DNA of 64,000 nt. Origin: Musa acuminata AAA Group (taxonomy: Eukaryota; Streptophyta; Magnoliopsida; Zingiberales; Musaceae). The notes under the pieces were generated by a model. The model saw nothing but the letters and a program-made list of their open reading frames with translations. It made no database searches and had not been told where the DNA came from. Positions 14,280-55,055 of the stretch are shown in pieces; positions within the stretch are counted from its first letter, which is position 1, and every line of letters starts with the position of its first letter. A program made the position numbers and the translations under genes. The stretch is from assembly GCF_036884655.1 (NCBI RefSeq), contig NC_088345.1, positions 28,189,501-28,253,500 of the forward strand, read 5' to 3'.

Positions 14280-14530
14280 GCGTTTAGACGTAAAACTGCG
14301 TTTAGACGTAAAACTGCGTTTAGACGTAAAACTGCGTTTAGACGTAAAACTGCGTTTTGACGTAAAACTGCGTTTGGACGTAAAACTGAGTTTAGACGCA
14401 AACTGCGCTTAGACGCAAACTGCGCTTAGACGCAAACTGTGCTTAGACGTAAACTGCGCTTAGACGCAAACTGTGTTTAGACGCAAATTGCGCTTAGACG
14501 CAAAACTGCGCTTAGACGCAAACTGCACTG
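14280..14530 (+). repeat. 18-bp tandem array of E3 5' LTR (second part)
   Basis: Continues the array begun at about 12650. Units read gcgtttagacgtaaaact early and gcgcttagacgcaaact late, showing a gradient of variants along the array. Confidence 0.88.
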
Positions 14531-19716: not shown

Positions 19717-20259
19717 CCCCACCCATTCAGCACTGAAAAGTAACAGATCCACACCGAATTCTTGATCTTTTCAGTGATTCTAAGAGCTCAAATTTGTGTA
19801 AAGTCCTAAAGTTCTCCTCCTTCTGTTCTTCAAGTCTTGAGTTGTAAAGAGAGGAGAGAAAGGATCTGTAAAGGTTGTCTCCTGAGCCTGTCAAAAGGAG
19901 AGAAACTGTAAAAGGGCAGTTAGCCTTCGCCCATTGAAGGAAGGTGGCTAGTTGACGTCGGTGACCTCGTCGGAGGAGGAAGCCAAAAGTGGAGTAGGTC
20001 AAGACTGACCGAACCACTCTAAATCTCTGGTTTGCTTTTACCTTGAGCACTTTATCATTACTGCAAACCTCCTACATTGCTACTGCCCTCTGCGCCTTTA
20101 CGAACGAGTTTCTAAGCTCTGATCTTTTAGAATCTGCATTCAAACGTAAATCGTGTTTTCGTACGATCTTCACACTGCAGTTTACGCTTACATTCGGATT
20201 CCATTTATAACTGCAAATTGCTTTCTACGTAAAACGCTTTTCAAGGTTCAAAACTGCTT

Positions 20260-20545
20260 TTAGACGCAAAACTACATTTAGACGCAAAACTGCGTTTAGA
20301 CGTAAAACTACGTTTAGACGTAAAACTGCGTTTAGACGCAAAACTGCGTTTAGACGTAAAACTGCGTTTTGACGTAAAACTGCGTTTGGACGTAAAACTG
20401 AGTTTAGACGCAAACTGCGCTTAGACGCAAACTGCGCTTAGACGCAAACTGTGCTTAGACGTAAACTGCGCTTAGACGCAAACTGTGTTTAGACGCAAAC
20501 TGCGCTTAGACGCAAAATTGCGCTTAGACGCAAACTGCACTGTGA
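20260..20545 (+). repeat. 18-bp tandem array of E3 3' LTR
   Basis: Units of gcgtttagacgtaaaact followed by gcgcttagacgcaaact versions, similar in order to the 5' LTR array but with a different number of early units. Confidence 0.88.
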
Positions 20546-20667: not shown

Positions 20668-20998
20668 GTCCTTTCCCTTTAAAGTGATTTGCTAGTGGAA
20701 GTTGGGAGCCTCATTGAAGAAGGCTTCGCAAGTGGATGTAGGTCATTTTGACCGAACCACTTTAAATTGGTGTGTTCCTTGAATGTGTGAGTATTTACTT
20801 TTCTGAAACTGTTATTTACATAGTAGCAAGCTTTCGGTTTTCATCTTCTTACTTTACTCGAGCTACTTCCACCAAGTCATTCATTAGTGAATCAAAATCT
20901 CTATGCATTTATGAAATCGTTTTCAAACTTATGAGTGTTAATCCGCTGCACTAATTCACCCCTCTCCCCCCCCTCTTAGTGCCGCTCCGATCCTAACA
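20668..20998 (+). repeat. 5' LTR of E4, second part
   Basis: Resumes after E3 with the duplicated gtcct. It ends with an interrupted C tract and GCCGCTCCGATCCTAACA at 20998, the subfamily C terminus. Together with 9487-10623 it makes an LTR of about 1.46 kb. Confidence 0.92.
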
Positions 20999-24989: not shown

Positions 24990-26430
24990 AAAATGGGGGA
25001 GATTGTTGAATTTTATATTTTGATGATGAATCCACTTGATATGTGTTTACAATTTTATCTACGTTTTGAGTGACGCAGGATGCTTCGATCAGGATGAGAC
25101 AATTAAAGCAGGAAAATCATGTTGTGCCGGAGGAAAATGTTAGAAGATTGGACGTCGGGCCGATGGATCGGTCGACGTATCGATAGAAGACTTCGGGCCA
25201 TGGATTCAGGCATATGGCCAAGAAAAGAGAGTCTTGTACCAAGGATATAGGAGTTGCGGAGTCAACTGGCTGATTGGGCAATAGGTCGCAAGAGAGGACG
25301 ATGCACCGAAGAATCGGACGAAGCGTCGAGGGACCAATGACATGCCGGACAACTTGATTAATTGCTTAAGAGTAATTGTCTAGATCAAACTTTTGTTTTA
25401 TATATGCAGGATTAACTATAATAGCTTGAAGACATAAAGCAAGTCTACCGAAGTCAAGTTCGATGGGTGTTCGAGAGTCCGAAGATTCGTCGGAGATGCT
25501 GTCGGAACCAACCCAGAAGAAATTGGGGACTTGTTGGAGTTTTCGGAAGTCCAAGAGATCGTCGGAGGTTTGCGAAGATCACTGAGAATGCTCAGCTACT
25601 CGATGAACTCGCCACAAGATTGGAAGCCTACTGGGTGTCTGACGATAGAAATCCAAGGGTGTATAGGAAGTCCGCCGAAAAGCTCGCCGGAAGGAGACTC
25701 GACATTTGCCGGTTGAAAACTTGCTTAGGACTATGTTTACAGTTGCGTAGTTTACATGTAATTAGGGTTAGGATTAAGGGATAATCCTATTTCCTGGTTA
25801 GGGGCCAATTGGGCCCGATATTACCTAGTTTGGGCCAATTTTGAAGCCCATCTAGTGACCCGTAGGACAAGGCGATAGAACTACCGGACTGGGCGGTGGC
25901 ACCGCCCAAATCCCGAGGATCGGGCAGTGGTACCGATGGACTGGGCGGTGGCACTACCTAGCACCCGAGAGGTCCGGCGGTGGCATCGCTAGAGTGGGCA
26001 ATGGCACCGCTACTACACTATTAGTGTCAAACACTAACAAGCGGTGGCACCGCCACTGATAGGCGATGTGTCACGACCCGGGTCTGATGAGTTAACTGGC
26101 CAATAACTCCATTTTGGTCCTCAACGGCGAACCAAAATGCTTAAGCGGGAGGTAACGTAGTATACTCATTAGGCCCTTATAAGCTAATCATACACATTCT
26201 CCACTTCCGATGTGGGACTAATGGGATATTACATTATCCCCAACTCAATTAGCTTGACGTCCTCGTCAAGGCCCGACATATCCCAGATCGAACCCTAGCA
26301 TAGTGCATGTGAGGTTTAACTCAGTGGTGGCTCCACGCCGTGATGAGTTCTCTGACTCCATCCACGGGTAGCCCTTTCCTACTGTAGCCCTCTCACCCTG
26401 CCCTAATGCTAGGTCGGCTCTGATACCAAA

Positions 26431-26613
26431 TGTCACGACCCGGGTCTGATGAGTTAATTGGCCAATAACTCCATTTTGGTCCTCAACGGTGGACCAAAAT
26501 GCTAAGGGCCTGATGAGTGTACTACGTTACCTCCCGCTTAAGCATTTTGGTCCGTCGTTGAGGACCAAAATGAAGTTATTGGCCAGTTAACTCATCAATC
26601 CTGGGTCGTGACA
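26431..26613. repeat. Fused central LTR of the TRIM dimer
   Basis: A 183-bp near-palindrome starting tgtcacgacccggg and ending ctgggtcgtgaca. Both arms carry the 3' part of the TRIM LTR, and the right arm extends further (gtgtactacgttacctccc block) than the left, so the fusion point is off-centre near 26500. Confidence 0.8.
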
Positions 26614-26810
26614 TTTGGTATCAGAGCCGACCTAGCATTAGGGCAGGGTGAGAGGGCTGCAGTAGGAAAGGGCTACCCATGGATGGAGTCAGAGAACTCA
26701 TCACGGCGTGGAGCCACCACTGAGTTAAACCTCACATGCACTATACTAGGGTTCGATCTGGGATATGTCGGGCCTTGACGAGGACGTCAAGCTAATTGAG
26801 TTGGGGATAG

Positions 26811-26975
26811 TGTAATATCCCATTAGTCCCACATCGGAAGTGGGGAATGTGTATGATTAGCTTATAAGGGCCTAATGAGTGTACTACGTTACCTCCCGCT
26901 TAAGCATTTTGGTCTGCCGTTGAGGACCAAAATGGAGTTATTGGCCAGTTAACTCATCAGACCCGGGTCGTGACA
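26811..26975 (+). repeat. Outer TRIM LTR, direct copy
   Basis: A 165-bp LTR beginning TGTAATATCCCATTAGTCCC and ending GGGTCGTGACA. The tcccacatcgg motif near the start is common in plant TRIM LTRs. The inverted partner is 26069-26233. Confidence 0.82.
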
Positions 26976-27483
26976 CGATGGCACTGCCAGCATTGGGAAC
27001 CCAAGAGAATTCAAAATTTAGAGTCTAAATTTGAATCCTCTTGGGGCCTATAAATACCCCTCAATTCTCAACAGAGAATACAACTTTTGAGAAGTTAGAG
27101 ATTAGATAAAACCTTAGCAAAGGCTGCAAAGGCTTTAACAAGTCTTGTTTTCAATTGCTTGAGTGTTCACCTCCTTCTTTCTCATTGAAAATTTGTAAGA
27201 GTGTGAACCACTTGTAAACAGTTAACTCATCAGACTCGGGTCGTGACACGATGGCACCGCCAGCATTGGGAACCCAAGAGAATTCAAAATTTAGAGTCTA
27301 AATTTGAATCCTCTTGGGGCCTATAAATACCCCTCAATTCTCAACAGAGAATACAACTTTTGAGAAGTTAGAGATTAGATAAAACCTTAGCAAAGGCTTT
27401 AACAAGTCTTGTTTTCAATTGCTTGAGTGTTCACCTCCTTCTTTCTCATTGAAAATTTGTAAGAGTGTGAACCACTTGTAAAA
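26947..27483 (+). repeat. Tandem duplication over the TRIM edge and LTR promoter
   Basis: Two units, 26947-27219 (273 bp) and 27220-27483 (264 bp). Each starts with the last 29 bp of the TRIM, then TSD cgatg, U3 sequence and the TATA block (27049-27056 and 27322-27329). The first copy has an extra 9 bp (gctgcaaag). The duplication therefore postdates the TRIM insertion. Confidence 0.9.
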
Positions 27484-27861
27484 GGTTGTAAGAGGAGTAT
27501 TTGTCCTTCCCCTTCAAAGTGATTTGCTAGTGGAAGTTGGGAGCCTCATTGAAGAAGGCTTCATAAGTGGATGTAGATCATTTTGACCGAACCACTTTAA
27601 ATTGGTGTGTTCCTTGAATATGTGAGTATTTACTTTTCTGAAACTATTATTTACATAGTAGAAAGCTTTCGGTTTTCATCTTCTCACTTTACTCGAGCTA
27701 CTTTCAACAAGTCATTCATTGTTGAATCGAAATCTCTATGCATTTATGAAATCATTTTCAAACTTATGAGTTTCAATCCGCTGCACTAATTCACCCAAAA
27801 CCCCCAACCCCCAACCCCCCCCCCCTCCCCCTCTTAGTGCCGCTCCGATCCTAACAAAGAG

Positions 27862-52376: not shown

Positions 52377-52569
52377 TGTAACATCCCTCGCTTTTAAAAA
52401 TTATTAATAAAGATTTATATGTAAATTGGAGGACCTATATGTAAATATAGAAATTACAAGGACTAAACTGCTAAGTTGCAAAAAAAAAAAAAAAAAAAAA
52501 AGGGAAAACCGAAAATTCGGTATTATCCCACCGCCTCCCACGCACTCTGTTTCTTCCAGAAACAGAGAG

Positions 52570-53500
52570 AGCGGTGGGGCGTGAGGAGAAGAAGGAGAGT
52601 GGTAGAAGAAGAGAGGAAAAAGAGGGAGAAGAGAAGAAGAAGAAGAAGAAGAAGAAGAAGAAGAGGGAAAAGAAGAGAGGAGGAAGAAGAGGGAGTAGAG
52701 AAGAAGAAGAAGGAGAAGAAGAAGAAGAGGAGGTGGCTGCAGCGAGGGCTGCAGCGAGAAGCTGTGGGGCGTGGGGAGAAGAAGAGAGGAAGAAGAGGGA
52801 GAAGAGAAGAAGAAGAAGAAGAAGAAGAGAAGAGGATAGCTGCGGCAAGGCTGCAGCGAGGAGGTGTGTGGGGTTGGGGAGGAAAAGGGAAGAGGAGAAG
52901 AAGAGGGAAAAGAGAGGGAAGAGGGAGAGGAGCGAGAGGTGGCAGCAGCTAGGGCTGCAGCACCTCTATTTCCTGCAGGTGGAAACAGAGGAGAGGTGTG
53001 GGGCGTTCGAAGAGGAGAAGAAGAAGAAGAGGAAGAGAAGAGGAAGAGGAAGCAGGGGAAGAGGTTGTGATACCTTTGTTTCCTACAGAGGAAACAGAGG
53101 AGAGGGTGTGGGTGACGTCGGGGAGAAGAAGGGGAGGAAGGAGAAGAAGAGAAGAAGAAGAAAAGAAGGAAAGGAAGAAGAAGAGAAAGGAAGAAGGGAA
53201 GGAGAGGAAGAAGAGAAGGGGCTGCGGCTGCGGCGATGGCAGCTGCAGTTGGAAGAGAAGAAGGAGAGGAAGATGAGCAGGGGAGGAAGAAAAGGCTGTG
53301 GTCGTGGCTGAGGCTGCGACTGCAGCATGCAGCTGGGAAAGAAGAGAAGGAAAGGAAGAAGAAGAGAAAGGAAGAAGGGAAGGAGAGGAAGAAGAGAAGG
53401 GGCTACGGCTGCGGCGATGGCAGCTGCAGTTGGAAGAGAAGAAGGAGAGGAAGATGAGCAGGGGAGGAAGAAGAGGCTGCGAGTGTGGTGGCTGCGGCCG
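52570..53500 (+). repeat. Purine-rich tract of the solo LTR
   Basis: Nearly 1 kb of gaagaagag/ggaagaagaag on the plus strand with few pyrimidines, broken by gctgcag patches. The long Glu/Lys/Arg-rich frames on plus and Ser/Leu/Phe-rich frames on minus come from this composition and are not genes. Confidence 0.88.
53168..53481 (+). repeat. Direct repeat of 133 bp in the purine tract
   Basis: 53168-53300 and 53349-53481 are almost identical (offset 181 bp), including the gcggcgatggcagctgcag core. Confidence 0.85.
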
Positions 53501-55055
53501 TGGCTACGACTCCGGCTGCGGCTGCAACGTTGGCTGCGGTAGCTGCGGCAGCGGTGGTGGCTGCAGTAGCTGCAGTAGCTGCTTTTGGGAAAGAGAAAGA
53601 GTAGGAACGAGAGAAGGGAAGAAGGAAATAATGCAGTGGAAGGGGGCTGCGGTTGTGACCGCAGTTGCGGTCGTGGCTGCGATTGTGGCAGCGGCAGCGG
53701 CGGCGGCTATGGCAGCTGCATTTGGGAAAGAAAAAAAGAAGGAATGAGAGTAAGAGAGAGCAGGTGACTGTGCCTCGATGTTCGACACATGATGTAGTTA
53801 CGAAGAAAGGAAGAAAACGGGAGCACAAAACGAAACAAAGAGAGGACACGGAGAAAAAGTAGAAGGATTTGGGCTGGCACCTTCTTTGGATCTTCGGATC
53901 GAAATCATTGAAAGGCAAGTTTCCCGCTTGTTTCAATCCTTTATATTGCAAGTTCCCTGTTCGTTTATCCTATAATTGCTCTGATATGCCTTATTGCAAG
54001 TTCCCTGATCGTTTTTCCTATAATTGCTCTTATATGTCTTATTGCAAGTATCCTGATCTTTCCCCACTGCCATTTTTATCTCTACATTTGCTTTGATTAT
54101 GAGGAACTTTGAATTGTACTAGCCTTGCATTTGTTATATCTCCTGTTTACATGTAACGATTCGAATCTGTGCAACTTTTGAGATTCTGATCTTTTGATAC
54201 CGAACTGCCTATAAGACTTTGTGGAAACTCTGATTTGTTCAAAACTGATTTCATTAGAAACTAGACTCGTAGACCTTTCTTTGATATATGGATTGAAAGA
54301 TCTGAAATCCAAACACCTGCCCAGTTATCTGTTGAATCTGACATTATGAATTCTGCCAACAGAGATTTTGTTCTATGACTCTTGCTTACCAAATTATTTG
54401 TAACTCTCTCTGTTGGACAGTTCAATTCATATGAAGCCTGTCTTATCTGAAAGTATTATCCAATGATTATTTCTGAGTAAATTGGAGCACGATTGATAGT
54501 TTGAATCATTTGTTCAATGTGCCTTCTGTATTTTGCCAGAAATCGAGCTTTGGTCGATTTCTCATATTCTGGTTTCATTCCTTTGAAAATTGATAACCTT
54601 TAGCCTTCTTATTCAATTAAGCTTTATATTACTGCTTTGAGTTCTTGTATACTCTTGTCCTTAAAATTATTGCATTCTTGAAAACCATTGTGGAACGTTT
54701 ATGCTATATCGTATTGACCCATATAGGCACATGTATATTCCATTGTTCCGCATTTGCTCCCGATATGTGCCTATTCCAGTTCATTCATTTTGACATTGAA
54801 TTTATCTAACCTTCTTATTTGAATTGAGCTATATATGATTGTTTGGAATCCTTGAATGCTCTTGCTTTCATTTCGTTTCCAAATCTGAATACATTTGTGA
54901 GAGATTTGTTCCTTGCATCATATTTGACTCGTAAAGGCACATGTACGTTTGTTGTTCCGCGTGTGCTTCCGATATATGCTATTTATTGTTCGTACTGCCC
55001 TTTTGTACTCTGGTGTTTGTGGGATTGTCTGGACCTTTGCCAGAAATGGTAAAGG

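Follow-up and report, generated by a model that had tools for sequence, protein, structure and literature searches.

The window analysed here, a 64,000-nucleotide stretch of the Musa acuminata AAA Group genome, carries at positions 26069-26975 a 907-bp unit that consists of two terminal-repeat retrotransposons in miniature (TRIM-like LTR retrotransposons) placed head to head. This unit is likely to be an inverted dimer of a multicopy TRIM-like family that was made as cDNA and integrated like other LTR retrotransposons. Head-to-head dimers of this kind are probably a recurrent by-product of strand switching in reverse transcription rather than members of one stable palindromic family.

Anatomy of the Dimer

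The unit is composed, in order, of an LTR of 165 bp, an internal region of 197 bp, a centre of 183 bp, a second internal region of 197 bp, and a second LTR of 165 bp. The outer left LTR (26069-26233, minus strand) and the outer right LTR (26811-26975, plus strand) each have the U5 end outward, and the internal regions lie at 26234-26430 (minus strand) and 26614-26810 (plus strand). An earlier note on this DNA had described two mirror TRIMs with a 165-bp LTR, a 197-bp internal region, and a total of 907 bp, and these lengths were reproduced. Its description of the centre as one fused LTR shared by both arms needs correction: positions 26431-26613 are a chimera in which the 3′ parts of two truncated LTRs meet at 26503, LTR positions 165 to 93 in antisense (26431-26503, minus strand) being followed by positions 55 to 165 in sense (26503-26613, plus strand). 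The U3 start is absent, LTR positions 1-54 being missing from the centre. Exactly one base is common to both halves at the joint, or TAAG once a one-base deletion is permitted (overlap read by eye). The inverted arms, 26068-26503 and 26541-26976, are 436 nt long and 97% complementary, with a 37-nt spacer. The predicted RNA fold of the dimer, −885.4 kcal/mol, lies so far below that of shuffled sequences (mean −284.3, sd 7.7, n = 20 shuffles) that a chance inverted repeat is excluded.

At the right end of the dimer, the last 30 bp of the TRIM LTR, together with the 3′ flank, are tandemly duplicated (273 bp; window 26946-27482), and the later duplicate (27219-27482, plus strand) is 96% identical to 26946-27218. 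The duplicated flank has a TATA-like motif, and the host LTR therefore holds that stretch twice. Comparable duplications of the TRIM LTR tail and flank are found at four sampled loci (L029, L038, L040, and L066).

Assignment to a TRIM Family

Several features place the unit among the TRIMs. Monomers with the order LTR, internal region, LTR measure 527 bp (e.g., L019 and L020); the short direct LTRs have TG..CA ends (165 bp, TGTAATATCC...GTCGTGACA); and the 197-bp internal region is short and apparently non-coding. Among open frames of at least 150 aa, the only length considered, none overlaps the dimer. The motif TGGTATCAGAGCC, a candidate primer-binding site (PBS) that may be complementary to the initiator Met tRNA, stands at the expected place in both orientations (26416-26428, minus strand; 26616-26628, plus strand). 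With up to one mismatch it matches seven times in the window, against 0.04 matches expected, and the dimer holds two of the seven. The LTR is preceded, at the place of a polypurine tract (PPT), by the weak purine run GAGTTGGGGATAG. Target-site duplications (TSDs) of 5 bp flank the window unit (CGATG) and other copies, such as L016, L017, L019, L020, and L022; a TSD is not visible at every copy of the family (e.g., L027 and L035). With two inverted TRIMs inside one TSD, the window unit has the organization of an inverted TA-TRIM.

The hallmarks of two related groups were looked for in the dimer: 5S-rRNA-like LTR sequence, as in Cassandra, gave no 5S match at Rfam E values up to 5, and the hammerhead ribozyme of retrozyme LTRs gave no match. 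Rfam also returned weak hits within the dimer, three to two miRNA families and one to a snoRNA, which fell far below the gathering scores; those to miRNA families are taken for hairpin artefacts. No match was returned for one 362-base piece searched against plasmids or for one exact 29- or 31-base pattern searched against each of viral and prokaryote contigs.

Insertion as a Single Unit

One copy of CGATG stands on each side of the dimer, at 26064-26068 and 26976-26980, and both outer ends of the dimer are exact U5 ends adjoining it. The host sequence resembles the LTR of a Copia-type retrotransposon, and related stretches recur in the window. In all five paralogous copies of the host LTR the insertion point is present singly, as CGGTG in three, CGATG in one, and TAGTG in one. 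All five align well over the right flank; over the left flank the alignment is gappy, with a 22-base stretch in the target that the other copies lack, and two of the copies (13291r and 59365r) diverge further upstream. The single TSD, the empty paralogous sites, and the exact outer U5 ends together lead us to conclude that the dimer was inserted whole, and the earlier note's proposal of integration as one pre-formed unit is upheld on these same grounds.

An LTR-end motif at 27831-27856 is repeated at 20973-20998, and the frame that directly follows the latter matches Retrotran_gag_2 (E 1.9e-31). A minisatellite of 17-18 bp units (such as AAACTGCGCTTAGACGC) lies upstream of Copia-type LTR ends at window 20213-20538 and 14280-14526. 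Elsewhere, window 52404-53969 is a low-complexity stretch in which open frames overlap on the two strands (Ser/Pro-rich and Glu/Lys/Arg-rich); it is probably not a gene.

Other Inverted Joins in the Host Genome

The host genome (1.53 Gb) contains many monomers and head-to-tail arrays of the family. The dimer query gave at least 318 matches, a number that exceeds that of copies because most ordinary copies match both arms and count twice; 39 of 2006 first-look candidates were scored. When the internal region alone was the query, 40 of 1852 candidates were scored and 52 matches resulted. The stretches fetched were mapped in two lots. The first comprised the window and L008-L056 (50 stretches, partly overlapping or adjacent), of which 45 hold pieces of the element, and the second comprised L058-L073 (16 stretches, all with pieces); L001-L007 and L057 repeat places already covered and were left out of the counts. 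The stretches were drawn non-randomly from the match lists, the first of which was made with a head-to-head query.

The first 50 stretches contain 280 same-orientation adjacencies of LTR and internal region, including those inside monomers. In the sampled stretches, the orientation changes at six head-to-head joins (the window, L008, L009, L012, L023, and L065) and two tail-to-tail joins (L059 and L060), and every joint is different. The ends, TSDs, empty sites, joints, and recurrence of these inverted dimers can all be read directly. A search of the genome for the unit and for copies with different TSDs, which the earlier note had proposed, thus yielded further inverted insertions with 5-bp duplications of their own: AACCT at L009, GAGAG at L012, and GCGCT at L059, besides CGATG in the window.

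U5 forms both outer ends in the window, L009, and L012. L009 is a 2+1 head-to-head array whose empty site occurs in the window's host LTR repeats, as AACCT once and CACCT twice, each time single, in a region that is itself repetitive. The left arm of L012 and of L065 consists solely of an LTR or part of one. The tail-to-tail L059 has U3 at both outer ends and contains an unassigned stretch of ∼115 bp. A TSD was looked for at L008 and L023 and none was found; the right side of L065 is truncated by another element; and the other end of L060 lies outside the fetched stretches.

In LTR coordinates, the joint falls at 93|55 in the window (1 base common), at 117|31 in L009 (CCA common), and at 62|142 in L012 (ACTCATCAG common); this and all other overlaps were read by eye. 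L023 joins internal position 158 to LTR 57 with 1 base common, L065 is joined at 7|49 with a small duplication, and in L008 the internal end is followed by a 13-bp filler and then a full LTR. Of the tail-to-tail joints, that of L059 connects an LTR end to internal position 92 (CGTGA common), and that of L060 has CTGATGAG in common. L012 and L060 therewith use one inverted repeat of the LTR, ACTCATCAG / CTGATGAG, in opposite senses.

Several apparent signals were considered and set aside. The orientation switches at L044 are attributed to a 10-bp inverted repeat that the LTR itself contains and were dropped as a join, a small inversion being possible. A bias to head-to-head joins would have spoken for the minus strand; the tail-to-tail L059 and L060 exist, and the first query favoured head-to-head cases. 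The constant joint sum (93 + 55 = 31 + 117 = 148) involves two cases only and was probably set by the joining of BLAST hits. Joint ends near LTR 55-62 (window 55, L023 57, L012 62) are suggestive of an RNA 5′ end, but L009 (31), L065 (7 or 49), and L008 do not fit. A TATA-like TATAAG is present at LTR 53-58.

Short inverted pieces also occur within a unit or array, at L010 (four repeats), L058, and L061 (three repeats), and L061 continues the L060 array; the pieces in the L010 and L061 arrays and at L058 point to chromosomal rearrangement also. L010, L060, and L061 are arrays of at least 10 TRIM units in which the LTRs measure 165 and 167 bp and inverted fragments recur, which suggests later block amplification. 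On contig C12, at ∼24.9-28 Mb, TRIM arrays lie inside or beside a 5S rDNA cluster (L008, L010, L023, L028, L049, L052, and L053), with 25 Rfam 5S matches across the seven stretches; at L010 and L028, where the flanks were read, 5S genes are apparently interrupted.

Divergence among Segments

Over the 70 columns common to the four LTR segments of the window dimer, nine are variable and all nine are singletons, and no variable column pairs the outer LTRs against the inner LTRs. Over the whole LTR, 11 changes could be assigned by majority, with one tie, and nine of the 11 are C>T or G>A; they are spread unevenly, with six on the inner right segment, two on the outer left, two on the inner left, and one on the outer right. 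Such a star pattern, few as the nine sites are, fits four LTR pieces that would have been identical at insertion and then decayed independently.

The window's two internal regions, as aligned, differ from each other at three positions and from other copies at one or two. The comparison of arm-to-arm with other-copy identity that the earlier note suggested accordingly finds the arms no closer to each other; the family is very uniform, so that parentage cannot be judged from the window copy alone. L009 is more informative. Its three internal units show no differences, and the nearest other sampled internal copy is six differences away (115 copies compared, with L009's three included and a few counted twice through overlapping stretches); its LTR pieces differ at zero to one position. 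The L009 arms therefore share one parent shortly before insertion. This common parent is directly shown and fits a strand switch that involved one cDNA or two cDNAs of the same source. The remaining head-to-head cases belong to a part of the family that is too uniform for such a comparison.

Origin of the Inverted Dimers

We infer that the joints are the work of reverse transcriptase. Within a virus-like particle, a nascent minus-strand cDNA would have extended as far as the 5′ LTR, and its 3′ end would then have switched strands at a short microhomology, either by snapping back on its own strand or by priming on a second co-packaged minus strand. Copying back out to the other U5 end would then produce a duplex with a U5 terminus at each end, which integrase supplied in trans could insert with a 5-bp duplication. 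Nascent minus strands have tRNA-primed 5′ ends at U5, and joining of their 3′ ends would give a U5-U5 head-to-head duplex; nascent plus strands have PPT-primed 5′ ends at U3, and the mirror event would give a U3-U3 tail-to-tail duplex. As LTR elements generally behave, duplexes of both types should be proper integrase substrates. The clean cases number three for U5-U5 and one for U3-U3.

Strand switching is favoured because the window dimer has a single 5-bp TSD, empty paralogous sites, and a star pattern at nine of nine columns, because separate insertions that differ in TSD and joint (L009 and L012) and a mirror case (L059) exist, and because the internal units of L009 are identical and joints fall at microhomology (L012, L060, L059, and L009). 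Some observations pull the other way. At the window and L023 joints, exact microhomology amounts to a single base pair; neither L008, where a 13-bp filler intervenes, nor L023 shows a TSD, L065 is truncated at its right end, and L059 contains the 115-bp stretch. The star pattern rests on nine sites with uneven branches (six of 11 changes on the inner right), and the window arms are no closer mutually than to other copies. Since L009 is a 2+1 array, a simple snap-back of one cDNA would need a further step there.

The inversion might instead have arisen in situ, an ordinary TRIM or head-to-tail array having inserted first and been inverted later through recombination or repair between LTRs. Array DNA does rearrange, as the head-to-tail arrays and the repeated inverted pieces (L010 four times, L061 three times) attest, and three of the eight joins (L008, L023, and L065) are without a demonstrable TSD. 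We nevertheless consider this origin unlikely, because the outer ends of the window dimer, L009, and L012 are exact U5 ends beside the TSD and the breaks would have had to fall exactly at the LTR/TSD border each time. Insertion of two separate TRIMs beside or into each other is a very improbable alternative, despite the abundance of the family (at least 318 matches, most copies counted twice) and a locus, L015, with two opposite-orientation insertions ∼250 bp apart: the centre of the window dimer contains neither an inner TSD nor host DNA, there is one outer TSD, and both inner LTR ends are truncated.

The earlier note had also allowed for a stable palindromic family, in which the dimer is copied and moves as a unit, and two further near-full-length matches (906-907 bp, on C12 and elsewhere on C19) speak for it. 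Their joints differ from the 93|55 of the window, however: L009 has LTR 117|31, and in L008 an internal end with filler meets a full LTR. The other head-to-head copies found likewise have different joints, with 39 of 2006 candidates scored and a same-joint copy thus possible; moreover, an RNA from the inverted outer LTRs would be unable to follow the usual path of reverse transcription, and LTR 1-54 is missing from the centre. There is accordingly only a slim chance that such a family exists. Inverted repeats are prone to mis-assembly, yet an artefact is scarcely credible here, given that the arms carry private substitutions, that the TSD and empty sites fit, that the unit is shorter than 1 kb, and that a comparable case in maize was confirmed by PCR and sequencing (PMC4717578).

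Returning to strand switching, a broader generalization is offered tentatively: TRIM reverse transcription may perhaps regularly produce, as a by-product, strand switches that join sense and antisense cDNA where the LTR offers microhomology; two mirror classes (U5-U5 head-to-head from minus strands, U3-U3 tail-to-tail from plus strands) would result, integrate normally, and give rise to natural hairpin loci that could trigger silencing of the family. In the window dimer each outer LTR points away from the centre, which itself is without LTR 1-54, so that only read-through from outside would yield a hairpin transcript; the idea that the dimer is a source of small RNAs is weakened for the same reason. 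If transcribed by read-through, such dimers could serve as natural silencing hairpins.

Comparison with Known Systems

Foldback and MITE-like DNA transposons have long terminal inverted repeats and a short TSD, as does the dimer. Unlike them, the dimer is built of arms that each contain parts of an LTR and of an internal region, with a PBS-like site, and its family includes monomers. Annotators should be aware that dimers of this kind resemble DNA transposons with 436-bp terminal inverted repeats.

Tandem TRIM arrays were reported by Gao et al. (2016) in 35 of 43 plant genomes (PMC4717578). Such head-to-tail TA-TRIM arrays (PMC4717578; Wukong in maize, PMC4528315) are likewise multi-unit TRIMs and also recur in the host genome studied here, but they are direct rather than inverted; those of Wukong have been ascribed to unequal crossing over (PMC4528315). 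Hairpins suggested to arise from head-to-head or tail-to-tail EVD insertions in Arabidopsis share the geometry of our dimers and were proposed as a possible silencing trigger, but the suggestion concerns separate or tandem full-size Copia insertions and not an observed inverted TRIM dimer (PMC11624286).

The closest parallel is a TRIM array of maize described as "with two inverted TRIMs"; it carries a single TSD, CTTCA, and was validated by PCR and sequencing (PMC4717578, Fig. 2 legend). Two inverted TRIMs with one TSD are thus already in print, and the earlier note's remark that it knew no named class for the arrangement needs correction. Like the window dimer, the maize array holds two inverted TRIMs within one 5-bp TSD; it differs in belonging to another family, its legend gives neither the joint nor whether the units are head-to-head or tail-to-tail, and the accessible text offers no mechanism for the inversion. 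Within the literature searched, from which most subscription journals are absent, an inverted TRIM appears in PMC4717578 only, and joint-level anatomy, recurrence with different joints, and two mirror classes were not encountered in the passages and listings covered. The inverted TRIM pair is therefore already known from maize, and its separate recurrence is shown in the host genome. An isolated published example thereby becomes a recurrent class with readable joints and TSDs, and a faulty step of LTR-retrotransposon cDNA synthesis becomes open to study from genome sequence alone.
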